Below are positions 2 through 5,323 of a stretch of DNA of 5,328 nt, piece by piece; position 1 is the stretch's first letter; each line of letters starts with the position of its first letter. The DNA lies in assembly GCA_017861495.1 (NCBI GenBank), contig JAGFXW010000178.1, positions 1-5,328 of the forward strand, given 5' to 3'. Below the pieces are notes generated by a model that was given only the letters and a program-made list of their open reading frames with translations, made no database searches and had not been told where the DNA came from. Origin of the DNA: Bacillota bacterium. Lineage in GTDB: Bacteria > Bacillota_C > Negativicutes > CTSoil-072. The position numbers and the translations under genes are program-made.

Positions 2-691
2 TGCGATGCCTGGCTTGATGAGCAGTTTCAGATGGCTGCCCAAGCTGCGCTGGGTGTGTCTGACCGTATTCTTTGGTCCGGTTCTGCGGGGTTGGCCGAG
101 TGCTTGCCGCAGTTATTGGTCCTGAACGGTGAACCGAAAATCTCCAAGCCGATATTGGTCGTTGCGGGCAGTGTGAGTGCTGTGACGCACAGACAGATTA
201 AATTGCTTCTGGACAGCGGTTTTGAATTGATCGAGGTCCAGGCGGCCGATTGTTTTTCCGAACACGAAAATTTCCTGCGGCCGTATATCCGTGCGGTACT
301 TGCCATTATGGCGCAAGGAAAAAATGTTGTACTTGCTTCTGGGTATCAAAGTGAAGCCGTAGAACAGACCAAAAAAGTAGGCGCAAAACTGGGCATGTCT
401 TCGGTTCAGATCAGCGAAGCTGTTGCTCAGATTCTTGGTTTGATAGGAGCTGCTATTCTGCGTCAGCAGGAAGTTGCCAGCGTGATCCTTACCGGCGGCG
501 ATACCGCTGCGGCTGTGTGCAAGGAACTTGGCGTGGTCGGTATCCGCGTTCTTGAAGAATTGGCGCCGGCGATACCGCTGGGCGAAATGAAAACGGCGGA
601 AGGGAAAACGTTGCGCGTGATTACCAAAGCAGGCGCGTTCGGCAGCCCGGATGTTTTGCTTAAAATTGCCAAACGGCTTCGGAAACGATAA
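2..691 (+). CDS. Four-carbon acid-sugar kinase, DUF1537 family, C-terminal part (5' end outside window)
   Basis: The reading frame is open to the left edge (first full codon at base 2), so the internal ATG at 32 is not the real start. About 229 residues are visible; family members are roughly 400-430, so the N-terminal substrate-binding domain is missing from view. Visible family signatures are the inter-domain GSAGLAE (about 80-100), the VVAGSVSAVT strand-loop (about 158-187), the nucleotide-binding LTGGDTAAAV (about 488-517) and the near-terminal TKAGAFGS (about 623-646). DUF1537 proteins are cytosolic ATP-dependent kinases that phosphorylate the 4-OH of C4 sugar acids such as D-threonate, D-erythronate or 3-oxo-tetronates. 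The next gene, 23 bp downstream, is a PdxA2-type dehydrogenase; that pairing is the known D-threonate/D-erythronate arrangement (DtnK or DenK type). Family assignment is secure; substrate is inferred from the neighbour. Confidence 0.92.
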   Translation, partial: CDAWLDEQFQMAAQAALGVSDRILWSGSAGLAECLPQLLVLNGEPKISKPILVVAGSVSAVTHRQIKLLLDSGFELIEVQAADCFSEHENFLRPYIRAVLAIMAQGKNVVLASGYQSEAVEQTKKVGAKLGMSSVQISEAVAQILGLIGAAILRQQEVASVILTGGDTAAAVCKELGVVGIRVLEELAPAIPLGEMKTAEGKTLRVITKAGAFGSPDVLLKIAKRLRKR

Positions 692-714
692 CGGTTTATT
701 AAGGAGAGTTATAC

Positions 715-1713
715 ATGATGAGACCAATTATTGCTATTACTATGGGAGATGCTACCGGGGCCGGCCCGGAGATTATCGTAAAATCCCTGAACGACAAAGC
801 AATTTATGAAATTTGCCGACCGCTGATTATCGGCGATAAAAAAATTATGGAACGGGCTGCTAAGATTGTTAATATTCCCATGCAGTTCCGGCCGATTCAA
901 GAGGTTGAAGAAAGCCAATTTGCGTTTGGTACGGTTGACATTATCGATTTCGATAATCTGCCGGCGAATCTTCCTTTTGCCACGATTGACGGCCGGGCCG
1001 GCAAGGCGGCGTACGAATACATTGAAAAGGCTGTTTCCTTGGCAATGGCGGGAAAAATTGATGCGATCGCTACATCGGCATTGCATAAGGAGGCATTGAG
1101 CATAGGCGGATATCCATTCCCAGGCCATACAGAAATTTTGGCCCATCTCTCAGGAACTCAGGATTATTCGATGATGTTGGCGGGTGGCCCGTTGCGTGTA
1201 ATTCATGTCTCTACGCATACTTCCTTGCGTAAAGCCTGTGATCGGGTGAAAAAGGACCGCGTTTTGAAAGTAATTCAACTGGCCGATAAAGCAGTTCGTG
1301 AATTAGGGATCGCCCAACCGCGGATCGCCGTGGCCGGATTGAACCCGCATGCCGGTGAAGGCGGATTGTTTGGCGACGAAGAAATCAAAGAAATCATTCC
1401 GGCTGTTGAAGAGGCGAAGAAACAAGGGATCAATGTGACAGGACCTATTGCTCCTGATACAGTATTTTATCGGGCGGCTCTGAAAGGCGAATTTGATATC
1501 GTAGTAGTTATGTACCATGACCAAGGCCATATTCCGTTGAAAGTGTTGGGCTTCGAGGAAGGGGTAAATATTACCGTTGGACTGCCATTTATCCGGACAT
1601 CGGTTGACCACGGGACCGCATTCGATAAGGCCGGCAAAGGCACTGCGGACAGCCGGAGCATGACGGCTGCCCTTGAATATGCGGCTCGAATGGCTGGAAA
1701 CGCCCACAAGTAA
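715..1713 (+). CDS. pdxA2: PdxA2-type 4-phospho-D-threonate / 4-phospho-D-erythronate 3-dehydrogenase
   Basis: 332 residues, the normal PdxA length. Two ATGs stand in tandem (715, 718); AAGGAG at 701-706 lies 8 nt before the first, which is therefore preferred. Family marks: N-terminal ITMGDATGAGPEI (8-20), GHTEIL (137-142), and three histidines in the contexts of the divalent-metal ligands of E. coli PdxA (H166, H211, H266): H168 in STHTS, H212 in GLNPHAGEGG and H268 in MYHDQGH. DHGTAFD (298-304) is also typical. PdxA proper oxidises 4-phosphohydroxythreonine in vitamin B6 synthesis; PdxA2 paralogues beside DUF1537 kinases oxidise C4 acid 4-phosphates with NAD, and the 3-keto product loses CO2 to give dihydroxyacetone phosphate. 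The kinase neighbour and absence of other B6 genes favour the catabolic role. The substrate loop reads TSALHKEAL rather than the TGPVHK type of E. coli PdxA. A role in B6 synthesis cannot be excluded from sequence alone. Confidence 0.92.
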   Translation: MMRPIIAITMGDATGAGPEIIVKSLNDKAIYEICRPLIIGDKKIMERAAKIVNIPMQFRPIQEVEESQFAFGTVDIIDFDNLPANLPFATIDGRAGKAAYEYIEKAVSLAMAGKIDAIATSALHKEALSIGGYPFPGHTEILAHLSGTQDYSMMLAGGPLRVIHVSTHTSLRKACDRVKKDRVLKVIQLADKAVRELGIAQPRIAVAGLNPHAGEGGLFGDEEIKEIIPAVEEAKKQGINVTGPIAPDTVFYRAALKGEFDIVVVMYHDQGHIPLKVLGFEEGVNITVGLPFIRTSVDHGTAFDKAGKGTADSRSMTAALEYAARMAGNAHK

Positions 1714-1914
1714 TTTTTAGCTATAGAATAATCGAATCCCATTGACTACTGATGCAGATGATATGAAGTAACTGAAGGTTCTAGGGAATTAACGTTCCTT
1801 GGAACCTTTAGATATAAACCTTGTATAAATCGTAATTCTTACTATTCCTGATTGATTTTTTGCGAGGGTTGTCAAAAGAAGAAGAAAATAGCAATGTGAA
1901 AGGATGATTATTTT
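1714..1914 (+). promoter_or_regulatory. Intergenic region between pdxA2 and larA, possible start of a second transcript
   Basis: 201 bp with no coding signal, much longer than the 23-bp gap before pdxA2. It contains a 14-bp hairpin (listed separately) and AT-rich sequence after it. The best promoter guess is TTGGAA at 1799-1804 with TATAAA at 1824-1829, but the 19-bp spacer is long and the -35 matches only 4 of 6 bases and lies inside the hairpin arm. An alternative TTGACT at 1742-1747 has no well-spaced -10. A moderate Shine-Dalgarno (AAAGGA, 1899-1904) serves the LarA gene 10 nt downstream. No sigma-54 site was recognised. Whether larA has its own promoter is undecided. Confidence 0.35.
1775..1808 (+). 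other. 14-bp RNA hairpin downstream of pdxA2, without a U-tract
   Basis: AAGGTTCTAGGGAA (1775-1788) pairs along its full length with TTCCTTGGAACCTT (1795-1808) around a 6-nt TTAACG loop. Two of the 14 pairs are G-U in + strand RNA (G1784 with T1799, T1781 with G1802 or their neighbours in register); on the - strand the same positions would be A-C mismatches. The structure therefore suits + strand RNA rather than a symmetric protein-binding palindrome. The following sequence (TTAGATATAAACC) has no T-run, so it is not a standard intrinsic terminator. It could protect the 3' end of the kinase-pdxA2 message, act as a weak or factor-assisted terminator, or mark a processing site. Confidence 0.6.
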
Positions 1915-3192
1915 ATGGAAGAAGTCATTGTATCATTACCGTACGGTGAGAAAACTGTGGAGATTGCTGTTCCTCAAAGTAATCTTATTGGCGTTTATTC
2001 ACCCCAAAATGTTGAACCGGTAACCGATATTAAACAAGAAGTAATTAGAGCGCTCAGCCAGCCGATCGGGACCAAACCATTGCGTGAATTGGTAGCCGGT
2101 GCACAAACAGTCGTTATTGTAGCGGATGACAATACCCGGTTGACGCCAACAGATAAGATCATTCCTGTTCTGTTGGATGAGATGAACGCGGCAGGGATTG
2201 CTGATGAACAGATCACCATCGTTATTGCGCTGGGAACCCACCGGTTTATGACGGACGAGGAGATTGTCATTAAATTTGGTGAAGCAGTAGTGAAACGGGT
2301 CAAAATAAAGAACCATGACTTCAAAAACCCGGATGCGCTTGTTGACCTGGGAAAAACGCCAAATGGAACGAGTGTCTGGGTCAATAAGGAAACGTACGAA
2401 GCGGATTTTAAAATTGGCATTGGCAGCATCGTTCCACACCATATTCCGGGCTTTTCCGGAGGGGCCAAAATCGTTCAACCGGGGATTTCCGGCGAACACA
2501 CGACGGCGGAAACCCATCTGCTTAGTGTACGGTCGCCGCGTTCCTATCTGGGCGTAGAAGATAATCCGGTCCGTCAGGAATTGAACAGCATCGCGGGGAA
2601 AATTGGGATGCATACCATTTTTAATACGGTTCTCAATCGTCATGGAGAAGTCGTGGGTGCCTTCTTTGGTGATTTAGTGGAAGCTTTTCATGTGGGCGTT
2701 GGTTTGTCGCGTGAGGTGTACGCGGTTGAAATTCCGGAAGCGGCAGATATCGTAATTTCCAGTTCCCATCCGTGCGATATCGAATTTTGGCAAGCGCATA
2801 AAACGTTGTATCCTTCCGATCTGGCAGTTAAAGCCGGCGGGACGATTATTATTGCGACTCCTTGTTATGAAGGCGTTGCCGTTACCCACTCCGAGATGGT
2901 CGATATTACTTGTCATTCGTCGACCTGTATGAAGCAAATGGTAGCCGATAAAGAAGTGCATGATGAAGTAGCGGCTGCACTGGCTATTGCCTGGGCGCAG
3001 GTCAAAGAGCGGGAAGATGTTTACTTTGTTTCCGATGGGATTTCACCGGAAGAAACGGAAAAATTGGGCTTTACGCCGTTTAGCTCGGTGCAGGAGGCGC
3101 TGGATGCAGCGTTTGCCAAACAAGGGAAAAATGCCAAAGTTACTGTGCTGACACATGCGCCGGATATGTTACCGATCATCAAAAATAAATAA
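1915..3192 (+). CDS. larA: LarA-family nickel-pincer-nucleotide racemase/epimerase of a 2-hydroxy acid
   Basis: 425 residues, the usual LarA length (DUF2088 N-terminal domain plus C-terminal domain). Key residues of Lactiplantibacillus plantarum lactate racemase are all found at nearly the same numbers: D72 and R75 in DDNTRLTP (71-78), H109 in GTHR (family H108), H175 in PHHIPGFSGGAK (family H174), K185 in the same motif (family K184, which bonds the cofactor), H201 in AETHLLS (family nickel ligand H200), and Q293/K296 in FWQAHK (family Q295/K298). An active nickel-pincer enzyme that inverts C2 of a 2-hydroxy acid by hydride transfer is expected. The substrate is not readable: LarA homologues include lactate racemases but also enzymes for other hydroxy acids and D-gluconate. 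Sugar-acid genes on both sides argue for a sugar acid. Start: ATG 1915, 10 nt after AGGA. Cofactor genes larB, larC and larE are not in the window and must be elsewhere. Confidence 0.93.
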   Translation: MEEVIVSLPYGEKTVEIAVPQSNLIGVYSPQNVEPVTDIKQEVIRALSQPIGTKPLRELVAGAQTVVIVADDNTRLTPTDKIIPVLLDEMNAAGIADEQITIVIALGTHRFMTDEEIVIKFGEAVVKRVKIKNHDFKNPDALVDLGKTPNGTSVWVNKETYEADFKIGIGSIVPHHIPGFSGGAKIVQPGISGEHTTAETHLLSVRSPRSYLGVEDNPVRQELNSIAGKIGMHTIFNTVLNRHGEVVGAFFGDLVEAFHVGVGLSREVYAVEIPEAADIVISSSHPCDIEFWQAHKTLYPSDLAVKAGGTIIIATPCYEGVAVTHSEMVDITCHSSTCMKQMVADKEVHDEVAAALAIAWAQVKEREDVYFVSDGISPEETEKLGFTPFSSVQEALDAAFAKQGKNAKVTVLTHAPDMLPIIKNK

Positions 3193-3212
3193 TTTTGGGC
3201 AAGACAAAGGGG

Positions 3213-3223
3213 TAAATTTATTT
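3213..3223 (+). repeat. 11-bp direct repeat, copy 1 (TAAATTTATTT)
   Basis: Exact match to 3289-3299, start-to-start distance 76 bp, one copy on each side of the leader hairpin. AT-rich, so chance similarity is possible, but the symmetric placement around the stem is notable. Confidence 0.6.
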
Positions 3224-3242
3224 GCTCTGCGTTCGTTTTGCA

Positions 3243-3277
3243 TCCCATGCTCCTCGGTTCGAACCGGGGGCATGGGA
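3243..3277 (+). other. GC-rich RNA hairpin in the dehydratase leader
   Basis: TCCCATGC (3243-3250) pairs with GCATGGGA (3270-3277). The stem continues through T3251-G3269, two C-G pairs and T3254-G3266, skips C3255 as a bulge, and is topped by GGT/ACC around a TCGA loop; the tip is the perfect 10-bp palindrome GGTTCGAACC (3256-3265). Two G-U pairs favour + strand RNA. No T-run follows directly (ACATGTGAAAGAT), so it is not a standard terminator. The tip resembles a tRNA T-arm loop (TTCGAAC), but there is no D-arm or anticodon arm, so it is not a tRNA gene. Confidence 0.7.
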
Positions 3278-3288
3278 CATGTGAAAGA

Positions 3289-3299
3289 TAAATTTATTT
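3289..3299 (+). repeat. 11-bp direct repeat, copy 2 (TAAATTTATTT)
   Basis: Identical to 3213-3223. It lies just before the ribosome binding site of the dehydratase gene; pairing of its TAAATTTA part with copy 1 would bring the hairpin close to the start site but would leave the Shine-Dalgarno itself free. Confidence 0.6.
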
Positions 3300-3302
3300 T
3301 AT

Positions 3303-3310
3303 GAGGAGGT
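3303..3310 (+). promoter_or_regulatory. Strong Shine-Dalgarno of the dehydratase gene (GAGGAGGT)
   Basis: GAGGAGGT matches the 16S rRNA 3' tail almost completely and stands 7 nt before ATG 3318. It fixes that start codon. The ATG at 3301 overlaps the site and is out of frame, so it is not a start of this gene. Confidence 0.85.
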
Positions 3311-3317
3311 CTTCAAC

Positions 3318-5048
3318 ATGAGTTGTAATTGTGGTCGGAGCCAATCCTTGCGGAAAGTGAATTATCAGGGGGACGGTTTGCGGGCTGGAACGCTATGGGA
3401 TCAGTGTGACCTTGGCAAATTGCAAATTTTGATTGATACTGCTCATGGTGACAGTCATCCGGGAAGTGTTCATTTGGGGAAATTGGCCGAAGAAGCAAAA
3501 TTGTCGGTGTATGAGGCACAGGGAAAACCGGCGCTCTATTCTGTGACCGATATTTGCGACGGAATTGCCATGGCGCATGATGGAATGAACTATTCGCTGG
3601 TAAGCCGGGAAATCATGTCCTACATGTACGAAATCCATGCACTGGCATCGCCGTATGATGGTGCGGTCTTCATGTCATCCTGTGACAAATCGGTCCCTGC
3701 CCAACTGATGACCATGCTGCGGATCGATATGCCGTCTATTCATGTTTGCGGCGGTTCGATGCTGAGCGGACCCAGCTTTATGTCGTCTGAGATTTTGTAT
3801 GGTGCTGGAGATAAATATGCTAAGGGCGAAATCAGCGACAATGAATTAATGTATTACTCCATGAATTGTTGTCCGAGTGCCGGCGCCTGTCAATTCATCG
3901 GTACAGCCAGTACCATGCAATCAATGTCCGAAGCATTAGGGTTATCTCTGCCGGGCGGTGCGTTAGCTCCTGCGTACACTGCTCACATCACCCGCTATGC
4001 CCGGGCCGCCGGTCGTCAGGTGATTGAGAACGTGAAAAATTGCCTAAGGCCGCGACAATTTATCACGAAAAAGAATTTCCTCAATGCAATGATGGTTCAT
4101 TCGGCAATTGGCGGTTCAACGAATGCCTTGCTGCATCTGCCGGCGATCGCCCGGGAGATTGGCATTGAAATCACGCCGCAGGATTTTGACCGGATTAACC
4201 GGGAGATACCGGTACTGGTCAGCCTGAAAACCGGCGGAGAATGGCCGACGGATATCTTCTGGTATGCGGGCGGCATTCCGGGTATTATGCGTCAACTGAA
4301 AGATTTGCTGCACTTAGATGTTATGACCGTTACAGGAAAAACGCTAGGCGAAAACCTGGATAATTTGGAAGCGGCCGGTTGGTTCCATGAAGCGAACAGC
4401 TATTTGGCCAATTATAAATTGTCGGCATCCGAAATCATCACAACGCGGCAAAAACCGACCAAACCGCAAGGAAACCTCAAAATATTGAGCGGAAACCTGG
4501 CTCCGGAAGGCGCAGTCATCAAAATGTCCGGTGTCGATGAAGCAATTCAAAACTTTACCGGCAACGCCCGTGTCTTTGATTCGGAAGAAGAGGCGGTTGC
4601 TGAATTACTGAATGGCGGCATTCAACCGCACAGCGCCGTCTTCATCCGGTTTGAAGGCCCACGTGGCTCCGGCATGCCGGAAATGTTGCGCACTACCGAG
4701 GCGCTGTGGAATATGCATGAATTGTCGAAGAGTGTGGCCTTGTTTACGGACGGCCGCTTCTCCGGCGCAACCCGGGGACCGGCGGTGGGACACATCAGCC
4801 CGGAAGCGGCTGAGGGCGGACCGATTGCGTATATCGAGGACGGCGATATCATTAAAATGGATGTAGCTGCCCGGAAACTTGATATCGTGGGGCTCAAAGG
4901 CCAGCCTGCTTCGGCCGAAGAAGTCGCTAAGGTTTTTGCAGAACGTAAGGCCGTGAAGAAACTGCCAATTAAGGAAGCATCACCAGTTGTCCGGTTGTAC
5001 CGGAAGCTTGCGATTGGCTGCAATAAGGGTGGCGGCTTGGACGTTTGA
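3318..5048 (+). CDS. IlvD/Edd-family sugar-acid dehydratase, variant iron-sulfur ligands
   Basis: 576 residues, typical for IlvD/Edd (550-620). The family dehydrates 2,3-dihydroxy acids to 2-keto-3-deoxy acids with an Fe-S cluster and Mg. Visible: DICDGIAMAHDGMNYSL (78-94; D81 fits the Mg ligand), SCDKSVPAQ (121-129; cluster C122 and K124, the lysine carbamylated in L-arabinonate dehydratase), CPSAGACQFIGTASTM (185-200; cluster C191), GGSTNALLHLPAIA (265-278), MTVTGKTLGENL (336-347), LAPEGAVIK (394-402), GSGMPEM (450-456) and TDGRFSGAT (477-485; S482 fits the catalytic serine). The usual first cluster cysteine, in PCNxHL, is absent: here HPGSVHL (47-53). Extra cysteines include C80, the CC pair 184-185 and C3/C5 at the N-terminus. 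As far as memory of it allows, E. coli YjhG (xylonate dehydratase type) shares the missing cysteine and the CDG motif. A C4-C6 aldonate is the likely substrate; branched-chain amino-acid synthesis is unlikely here. Confidence 0.9.
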   Translation: MSCNCGRSQSLRKVNYQGDGLRAGTLWDQCDLGKLQILIDTAHGDSHPGSVHLGKLAEEAKLSVYEAQGKPALYSVTDICDGIAMAHDGMNYSLVSREIMSYMYEIHALASPYDGAVFMSSCDKSVPAQLMTMLRIDMPSIHVCGGSMLSGPSFMSSEILYGAGDKYAKGEISDNELMYYSMNCCPSAGACQFIGTASTMQSMSEALGLSLPGGALAPAYTAHITRYARAAGRQVIENVKNCLRPRQFITKKNFLNAMMVHSAIGGSTNALLHLPAIAREIGIEITPQDFDRINREIPVLVSLKTGGEWPTDIFWYAGGIPGIMRQLKDLLHLDVMTVTGKTLGENLDNLEAAGWFHEANSYLANYKLSASEIITTRQKPTKPQGNLKILSGNLAPEGAVIKMSGVDEAIQNFTGNARVFDSEEEAVAELLNGGIQPHSAVFIRFEGPRGSGMPEMLRTTEALWNMHELSKSVALFTDGRFSGATRGPAVGHISPEAAEGGPIAYIEDGDIIKMDVAARKLDIVGLKGQPASAEEVAKVFAERKAVKKLPIKEASPVVRLYRKLAIGCNKGGGLDV

Positions 5049-5124
5049 TAAAAATAAGCTTGTTCAGACGGAATTTTAGCGCCGTTTGATCAGGAGCGCT
5101 TCGAATTATATCTCAAAAAACAGA

Positions 5125-5168
5125 TGATTCAGATGGGGCTTGGCCCCATCTGAATCACGTCTTTTTTT
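5125..5168 (+). terminator. Intrinsic terminator of the dehydratase gene, possibly bidirectional
   Basis: TGATTCAGATGGGGC (5125-5139) and GCCCCATCTGAATCA (5143-5157) form a perfect 15-bp stem with a TTG apex (or a 5-nt CTTGG loop), followed after CGTC by seven Ts (5162-5168). It starts 76 nt after the dehydratase stop codon. An A-run at 5115-5120 on the other side would give a U-tract on the - strand, so it may also stop transcription coming from the right. Confidence 0.93.
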
Positions 5169-5181
5169 CTAGGCTGTGGTA

Positions 5182-5205
5182 TATTATTATTATTATTATT
5201 ATTAT
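5182..5205. repeat. (TAT)8 trinucleotide microsatellite
   Basis: Eight uninterrupted TAT units (equally readable as ATT or TTA). It lies between the terminator and the inverted-repeat region, just upstream of a possible -35. Uninterrupted tracts of this kind can change length by slipped-strand replication; in this position that would shift spacing or UP-element-like AT content rather than a reading frame. Confidence 0.95.
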
Positions 5206-5238: not shown

Positions 5239-5323
5239 TGAGCCTTAGGTTCGGAGGGGGTTATTGCCCCCGCCGAACCCTTAGAGCGAACTTAGTTCGA
5301 GTGTTATAGCCTGTTGATCCCCG
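5224..5323 (+). other. Nested inverted repeats, candidate structured RNA or leader
   Basis: The outer arms CGGGGAT (5224-5230) and ATCCCCG (5317-5323) are exact complements; inside them TATAA (5233-5237) matches TTATA (5304-5308). Two hairpins are enclosed: GGTTCGG (5248-5254) with CCGAACC (5273-5279), continuing after one A-G mismatch as GGGGG/CCCCC around a TTATTG loop; and CGAAC (5287-5291) with GTTCG (5295-5299) around TTA. Together they can form a closed multi-branch fold. No known riboswitch, tRNA, tmRNA or ribozyme consensus was recognised. It could equally be the end of a small mobile element or an attenuator; the right edge cuts off what follows. Confidence 0.45.

Follow-up and report, generated by a model that had tools for sequence, protein, structure and literature searches.

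The window, the whole 5,328-nucleotide stretch of DNA that was analysed, carries four genes on one strand followed by a terminator-like hairpin (Table 1). This layout and the four protein families given in a preliminary description of the locus were confirmed by the list of open reading frames, by Pfam, where every domain match in the window lay above the curated cut-off, and by the hairpin scan, with the kinase gene being partial. The names 'LarA', 'PdxA2' and 'aldonate dehydratase' denote families assigned from sequence. Within its inverted repeat, the hairpin comprises 15 pairs and a T run (5125-5157). The whole scan yielded three terminator-like sites as against 6.1 in shuffled sequences, so that the case for a terminator depends on the length of this hairpin and not on the site count. 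Promoter-like sites in the window numbered nine (6.9 expected by chance), a single weak match to an RNA element, CrcZ (E 0.21), was dismissed, and no relatives were found among viral contigs. The gaps between the PdxA and LarA genes (201 bp) and between the LarA and dehydratase genes (125 bp) are wider than in relatives: the former measures 20 to 89 bp between matched spans at 19 of the 24 loci with PdxA, and the latter 26 bp in L001, which among the relatives comes closest in its LarA, kinase and dehydratase. A single transcript for all four genes can therefore be proposed only with qualification.

Table 1. Features of the window, with positions counted from its first nucleotide
Feature	Position	Strand	Basis or remark
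DUF1537-family kinase fragment, last 229 residues (NBD_C)	2-691	+	ORF open at 5' edge; N-terminal domain outside window
PdxA-family dehydrogenase, PdxA2-like	715-1713	+	Pfam PdxA and PDB chain matches
Homologue of LarA (nickel-pincer-nucleotide 2-hydroxyacid epimerase/racemase), member of the H-I-A-L pocket clade	1915-3192	+	Pfam Lar_N and LarA_C
Palindromic segment between larA and dehydratase	3213-3296	none	Perfect 9-nt inverted ends flanking G+C-rich hairpin; missing from the larA-dehydratase gap of L001
IlvD/Edd-family dehydratase, divergent type (here DHD_a)	3318-5048	+	Pfam ILVD_EDD_N and ILV_EDD_C
Terminator-like hairpin, probably bidirectional	5115-5167	none	Arms of 25 nt with 88% complementarity, flanked by an A run and a T run

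The LarA homologue matched Lar_N with 221.3 bits (cut-off 23.3) and LarA_C with 43.6 bits (cut-off 25). R75, K184 and H200, which bind the nickel-pincer nucleotide (NPN), and the catalytic H108 and H174 (LarA1 numbering) are intact in the window protein, as they are in all 42 orthologs, and the LarC family was detected in 32 of 40 ortholog-bearing genomes, many of which are MAGs. At the four specificity positions, 41 of the 43 sequences of the clade have H-I-A-L, a combination that none of the 27 other aligned LarA homologues shows. This pocket is different from those of the classes described in PMC11770544. Assignment as a lactate racemase was rejected on the pocket, for which F, F, W and E/Q (T in LarA1) would be expected, and on a score of 305 bits, below the cut-off of 460 of the NCBIfam model. 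The malate racemases LarAH5 and LarAH6 are not matched either: H/Q and K are expected at positions 358/359, where the window protein has A and L, and both NCBIfam cut-offs were missed (313 bits against 462 and 359.5 bits against 500). A D-gluconate 2-epimerase, finally, would carry E, V, A and H, of which H-I-A-L has the alanine alone in common. No NCBIfam model reached its cut-off for the LarA homologue, the kinase fragment or the dehydratase.

The kinase gene adjoins the PdxA2-type gene, as in the D-threonate pathway. The kinase fragment gave 113 bits on NBD_C, which represents the C-terminal portion of DUF1537 proteins; the best NCBIfam model for the fragment was D-threonate kinase, with 137.9 bits and a cut-off of 450. 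The full-length kinase relative of L001 reached 321 bits on this model, the cut-off of which was missed by all seven full-length kinases tried. The PdxA protein scored 375 bits on Pfam PdxA and 366.7 bits on the NCBIfam model for D-threonate-4-phosphate dehydrogenase, below the cut-off of 583; in the PDB it matched 4jqp (365 bits), and 2hi1 (dehydrogenase 2) and 6e85 (D-threonate 4-phosphate dehydrogenase), both with about 318 bits, as against 203 bits for 1ps7. The known substrates of DUF1537 and PdxA enzymes are C4 acids, and the kinase/PdxA pair speaks for such an acid over a longer aldonate. A pentonate or hexonate substrate is disfavoured on this ground and because the pocket is not of the gluconate-epimerase type.

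The gene neighbourhood was compared between 42 loci of the LarA clade (60-83% identical) and 20 loci of more distant LarA homologues, with a distance limit of 8 kb. The linkage of close LarA homologues to DUF1537 and PdxA, for which the preliminary description had proposed this comparison as a check, was recovered: one or the other gene was present at 27 of the 42 clade loci (both at 18) and at none of the 20 distant ones. Taken singly, PdxA was found at 24/42 against 0/20 loci (Fisher p 4e-6) and DUF1537 at 21/42 against 0/20 (Fisher p 3e-5), frequencies which argue that the linkage is not due to chance. The linked genes lay upstream of LarA and on the same strand in all cases, and PdxA was the most frequent and tightest neighbour. 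For dehydratases the enrichment was not significant (13/42 against 2/20, p 0.11) and for PanB it was weak (8/42 against 0/20, p 0.046). None of these four gene types was nearby at six of the 42 loci, two of which are on short contigs. L009, L076, L077 and L078 lack all four in full or nearly full flanks; L009 and L076 carry H-I-A-L, and L077 and L078 are the clade members that depart from it. The genomes of the latter two hold H-I-A-L copies as well (L019 and L079), with DUF1537 and PdxA nearby. Across loci, identity to the window varied least for LarA, as compared to 51-75% for PdxA and 28-72% for the kinase. TRAP or GntP permeases occurred near some relatives. By record titles, and within the groups searched, the clade was distributed over Negativicutes, Syntrophaceae and their kin, and Spirochaetes, and it was also met in individual MAGs with the labels Nitrospiraceae, Acidobacteriota and Clostridia; LarA proteins of this clade stand beside tetronate-breakdown enzymes in many anaerobic bacteria.

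We propose, with a probability of about 0.55, that the LarA homologue uses NPN to epimerise four-carbon sugar acids at C2, most likely interconverting D-threonate and D-erythronate. It would belong to a set of genes for growth on tetronates, to which the dehydratase would add an exit. As a prediction, a D-threonate/D-erythronate epimerase is well supported by context. The Ni-pincer cofactor would take a hydride at C2, with H109 and H175 as acid/base, and C2 would be inverted. The kinase and PdxA2 would convert the D-tetronate via the 4-phosphate and the 3-keto acid to dihydroxyacetone phosphate and CO2, and inversion at C2 would thus allow one kinase/PdxA2 pair to serve both epimers. Epimerisation of 4-deoxy-threonate/4-deoxy-erythronate by members of the LarA family is described in PMC11770544. 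In agreement with the preliminary description, no described pathway joining LarA to PdxA2 was found in the open-licence papers searched, Table S1 of PMC7583248 (neighbours per LarA group) excepted.

A considerably less probable reading is that the enzyme has a different short acid as its substrate for epimerisation or racemisation, for instance malate, tartrate, glycerate or 2,4-dihydroxybutyrate, and that the tetronate genes are part of a broader acid-utilisation cluster. Its closest NCBIfam model is indeed malate racemase LarAH6, its best PDB sequence match is Mar2, and published LarA enzymes are promiscuous according to PMC11770544. However, by the class rule in the same paper malate racemases usually have H/Q-K where the clade has A-L, the 24 scanned neighbours of clade LarAs (a minority of all neighbours) included no enzyme family for malate or lactate, and the linkage to PdxA indicates C4 sugar acids.

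The dehydratase of the window matched ILVD_EDD_N with 352 bits and ILV_EDD_C with 198 bits, and remained below the NCBIfam cut-offs for biosynthetic IlvD (517 bits against 644 and 512 bits against 618). A 93% identical copy lies directly 3' of LarA in L001. Loss of a cluster cysteine as a peculiarity of this protein was rejected: Gly stands opposite the 6ovt Cys in the alignment, yet all compared IlvD/Edd proteins except L123 are alike in this and have a Cys before the next D-G/D-A. Dehydratases of the window type (70% identity or more) were directly followed by PanB at 6 of 14 places and had DUF1537 within 8 kb at 8 of 14, as compared to 0 of 10 in both cases for dehydratases of 48-53% identity. 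The LarA clade was present in 10 of 13 genomes with a window-type dehydratase and in 22 of 300 overall (p 1e-10, uncorrected for kinship). The PanBs linked to dehydratases, 14 in number, fall into two groups distinct from the two panC-adjacent PanBs, and of 11 genomes with a single PanC, 9 hold at least two PanBs above the cut-off. In L025 the row reads dehydratase-DUF1537-PdxA-LarA-PanB; the 21-kb locus of L001 has no PanB, and the window itself carries only the dehydratase of this branch. In L164 and L165 window-type dehydratases lie beside SDF-family symporters, in L164 also near a D-cysteate sulfo-lyase-like gene, neighbours which the tetronate reading leaves unexplained. Of the 'aldonate dehydratase' in the preliminary description, the IlvD/Edd family was upheld by Pfam; the enzyme is more plausibly a second exit for the tetronate, running in parallel, than an aldonate enzyme feeding the kinase/PdxA pair.

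In such an exit the dehydratase would convert the 2R epimer to 4-hydroxy-2-oxobutanoate (HOB). A PanB-like hydroxymethyltransferase, encoded in several relatives, would then move the terminal CH2OH from HOB onto tetrahydrofolate, yielding pyruvate and 5,10-methylene-tetrahydrofolate, which would suit acetogens and syntrophs whose C1 pathways run on folate. We put forward tentatively, at clearly lower confidence than the epimerase itself, a natural route of acetogens and syntrophs in which the nickel epimerase sets C2 of the tetronate, the IlvD-type dehydratase forms HOB and specialised PanB paralogues serve tetrahydrofolate, with kinase/PdxA2 as the alternative exit. This branch is an inference, as dehydratases near LarA were not significantly enriched. 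No described natural HOB/PanB route was present among the literature matches listed.

The grouping of LarA, IlvD and PanB could instead reflect biosynthesis of branched-chain amino acids and pantothenate, with LarA acting on 2,3-dihydroxyisovalerate, the racemisation of which is a published activity of the family, or on pantoate. IlvD cut-offs were passed by the dehydratases adjoining LarA in L014 (753 bits against 644 and 720 against 618) and upstream in L004 and L025, and panB cut-offs by all four linked PanBs tried. This reading is nevertheless improbable: the window dehydratase falls below the IlvD cut-offs, PanC (11/14 genomes) and ketol-acid reductoisomerase (10/10 genomes) lie on other contigs or more than 1 Mb from the LarA locus (in mostly fragmented MAGs), and DUF1537 and PdxA are left unexplained. 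In addition, the PanBs next to panC, known from two rows, lie on other branches than the dehydratase-linked ones. Similarly unlikely is an L series, L-threonate and L-erythronate mainly feeding the dehydratase beside a separate D-threonate route of the PdxA pair: ascorbate breakdown commonly yields L-threonate (PMC12540250), L-threonate dehydratases are reported (PMC10079672) and the dehydratase branch needs no D series because dehydration erases the chirality of C3, but the tightest and most frequent neighbour of LarA is PdxA and not the dehydratase.

With its single pocket signature and single recurrent neighbourhood, the clade provides a directly testable function assignment in a superfamily for about half of which functions could be predicted (PMC11770544). 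The proposed D-threonate/D-erythronate epimerase, if correct, would add an epimerase to tetronate catabolism and a new role to the LarA family. If the dehydratase/PanB branch is real as well, it would explain why several genomes have many PanB copies but one PanC, and sugar acids would directly supply the folate one-carbon pool as well as pyruvate, as a natural counterpart of the synthetic HOB cycle. To our knowledge, a route from sugar acids to methylene-tetrahydrofolate is known only as engineered metabolism.

With the lactate and malate racemases and D-gluconate 2-epimerases of the LarA superfamily, the window protein shares the fold, the NPN-binding residues and the two catalytic histidines, so that proton-coupled hydride transfer is probable here too. 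It differs in being 22-37% identical to solved members in structural alignment, in the H-I-A-L of its clade against F-F-W-E/Q (T in LarA1), H/Q-K at the last two positions or E-V-A-H, and in the tetronate-pathway genes beside it. D-threonate and D-erythronate are reportedly catabolised by a DUF1537 kinase and PdxA2 (Zhang et al. 2016), and genes of these two types lie side by side upstream here as well. Clade loci add a putative C2 epimerase and some also a dehydratase and PanB, whereas we know of none of these three as a member of the described pathway. In the synthetic HOB cycle (Bouzon et al. 2017, according to PMC6966089), E. coli PanB uses HOB as C1 donor, and HOB, there termed non-natural, is made from homoserine via an evolved transaminase in engineered E. 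coli. The route proposed here would likewise split HOB to pyruvate, with PanB passing the C1 unit to tetrahydrofolate, but its HOB would have a natural source, tetronates converted by an IlvD-type dehydratase.

To judge by sequence, the window LarA falls in a LarA clade of its own. Of 300 genomes from the class that includes Sporomusa sp. KB1 (G002; G-numbers denote genomes), 208 carry some LarA homologue (E 0.001), and 24 places in 22 of these genomes were 64-83% identical to the window LarA, with the next best at ≤41%. The clade was also detected in 12 of 155 genomes of the class of a Syntrophaceae MAG (G013) at E 1e-120 and in 1 of 247 genomes drawn from the phylum of a Spirochaetales MAG (G022). 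The ortholog set comprised 42 loci in 40 genomes, including the 25 loci found first and excluding the window; the controls were 20 LarA homologues of the same class (33-41% identity), picked by hand and non-randomly from the list.

Within 8 kb of LarA, PdxA was found in 24/42 orthologs versus 0/20 controls (p 4e-6), DUF1537 in 21/42 versus 0/20 (p 3e-5), the TRAP subunit DctP in 14/42 versus 0/20 (p 0.003) and PanB in 8/42 versus 0/20 (p 0.046), with p-values uncorrected for kinship among loci and for the 12 gene types tried and with flanks shorter than 4 kb in 10/42 ortholog and 5/20 control loci. Enrichment of IlvD/Edd was not significant (13/42 versus 2/20, p 0.11). Every linked PdxA and DUF1537 gene was located upstream of LarA on the same strand. 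At least one of DUF1537, PdxA, IlvD/Edd and PanB was present in 36/42 ortholog loci; those with none were L007 and L085, on short contigs, and L009, L076, L077 and L078, with full or nearly full flanks.

Genes and elements of the window
Feature	Position	Strand	Basis
DUF1537 kinase, last 229 residues	2-691	+	ORF call, Pfam score above cut-off
PdxA-family dehydrogenase	715-1713	+	ORF call, Pfam score above cut-off
LarA homologue, 425 residues	1915-3192	+	ORF call, Pfam score above cut-off
IlvD/Edd dehydratase, 576 residues	3318-5048	+	ORF call, Pfam score above cut-off
Terminator-like hairpin	5115-5167		downstream of dehydratase ORF

The window LarA, kinase fragment and dehydratase fell below the cut-off of every NCBIfam model. 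The window PdxA exceeded the general pdxA cut-off (369.7 versus 290.35) and remained under that for D-threonate-4-phosphate dehydrogenase (366.7 versus 583). In a PDB sequence search it scored 365 bits with 4jqp, about 318 bits with 2hi1 and 6e85 (by name dehydrogenase 2 / D-threonate 4-phosphate dehydrogenase) and 203 with 1ps7. For the full-length kinases tried, D-threonate kinase was the best model, yet all seven stayed under its cut-off.

Judged by LarA (83% identity), kinase (72%) and dehydratase (93%), the closest relative examined was L001 from a Bacillota soil MAG. The window gene group looks mosaic in these comparisons, because its PdxA is closest to other loci: identity was just 62% to L001, 75% to L070 and L072, and 74-75% across L008, L011, L012, L070, L072, L074 and L075. 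The larA-dehydratase gap, about 22-26 bp in L001, contains in the window an 84-bp palindromic segment (3213-3296) whose 9-nt ends are perfect inverted repeats enclosing a G+C-rich hairpin; the segment looks like a small inserted element. Past the terminator lie a short ATT repeat (5182-5205) and a second G+C-rich hairpin (5248-5279).

D-threonate is 2S,3R and D-erythronate 2R,3R, and to our knowledge the familiar IlvD/Edd sugar-acid dehydratases take 2R acids. C2 inversion by LarA would thus sit between a kinase/PdxA exit to dihydroxyacetone phosphate and a dehydratase exit through 4-hydroxy-2-oxobutanoate to PanB. We infer that this placement fits both LarA neighbours in the window, and it is here that the argument is most likely to go wrong. 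Tetronate dehydration across C2-C3 to 4-hydroxy-2-oxobutanoate is demonstrated for D-threonate with AraD-type dehydratases (PMC10079672), and a synthetic cycle uses the product as a substrate of PanB (PMC6966089). Two IlvD enzymes were tested in PMC10079672, yet its section 8 names only two AraD enzymes as clearly D-threonate-active; the paper mentions a Sulfolobus IlvD as accepting 2S,3R acids too.

An IlvD-like dehydratase precedes LarA by 23-42 bp in eight loci (L013-L016, L018, L081-L083), with a PanB-family gene ahead of the pair in three (L014, L082, L083) and contig ends cutting others. Further orders were dehydratase-DUF1537-PdxA-LarA-PanB (L025), DUF1537-PdxA-LarA-TRAP genes-PanB (L021 and L022, the former with one extra ORF before PanB) and dehydratase-PanB-PanB-LarA-LarA2 (L069). 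The window-type dehydratase (≥70% identical) occurred at 14 places in 13/300 genomes, one of them, L165, with a contig end just downstream. PanB followed it directly in 6/14 (L088, L113, L159, L161, L162, L163), and DUF1537 lay within 8 kb in 8/14 (these six, L160 and L001); for ten dehydratases of 48-53% identity, both counts were 0/10. The LarA clade was present in 10 of the 13 genomes, compared with 22/300 overall.

The dehydratases of L014, L004 and L025 score above the IlvD cut-offs, and linked PanBs above the panB cut-offs (4/4 tried), so a conventional role in pantothenate or valine synthesis has to be weighed. PanC (found in 11/14 genomes) and KARI (10/10) are, however, apart from LarA, in genomes that are mostly fragmented MAGs. 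Among 11 genomes with one PanC, nine had more than one PanB over cut-off and two (G006, G438) a single one. In a tree of 31 PanB sequences, the 14 with a dehydratase within 4 kb formed two groups (supports 99/99 and 99/98), and two panC-adjacent PanBs branched outside both. The linked PanB of L088 aligned over near full length with PanB 1m3u, retaining the GDS, K.EGG and E..P stretches. Counted against a tetronate role are SDF-family symporters near the window-type dehydratase in L164 (5475-9713) and L165 (196-6066). In L164 the gene directly before this dehydratase exceeds the cut-off for D-cysteate sulfo-lyase (536.7 versus 450); L167 has nearby ORFs similar to the L164/L165 neighbours, as compared by size alone.

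Other arrangements were also observed. L014 (16057-18230), L016 (6525-8705), L082 (2158-4326) and L118 (4512-6685) each carry another LarA, 31-32% identical, with a same-strand PanB at a distance of about 50-90 bp; this second LarA passed the LarAH10 NCBIfam cut-off in both loci tried (L014, L069), and the native LarAH10 substrate may come from the same chemistry. Two unlike PanB paralogues accompany one dehydratase in L069 (5880-7579), L087 (6991-8687) and L127 (5942-8624); at a guess, dehydrated apionate, with two CH2OH on C3, could have both removed by two PanBs. Acylating acetaldehyde dehydrogenase and a DmpG-type aldolase near an IlvD-type dehydratase (L004, L006, L069/L112, L088, L159, L161, L114) would fit conversion of a 5-deoxypentonate to pyruvate and acetyl-CoA. 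In L160 (8001-15971) the window-type dehydratase occurs with DUF1537, a LarA of 35% identity and a permease of the KdgT family, a type used as D-threonate importer (PMC10079672).

A joining of LarA to PdxA or DUF1537 was not found in the open-licence literature searched, where the neighbour table of PMC7583248 (Table S1) may hold an earlier mention. The proposed D-threonate/D-erythronate epimerisation has a described counterpart: LarA enzymes epimerise 4-deoxy-threonate and 4-deoxy-erythronate (PMC11770544).
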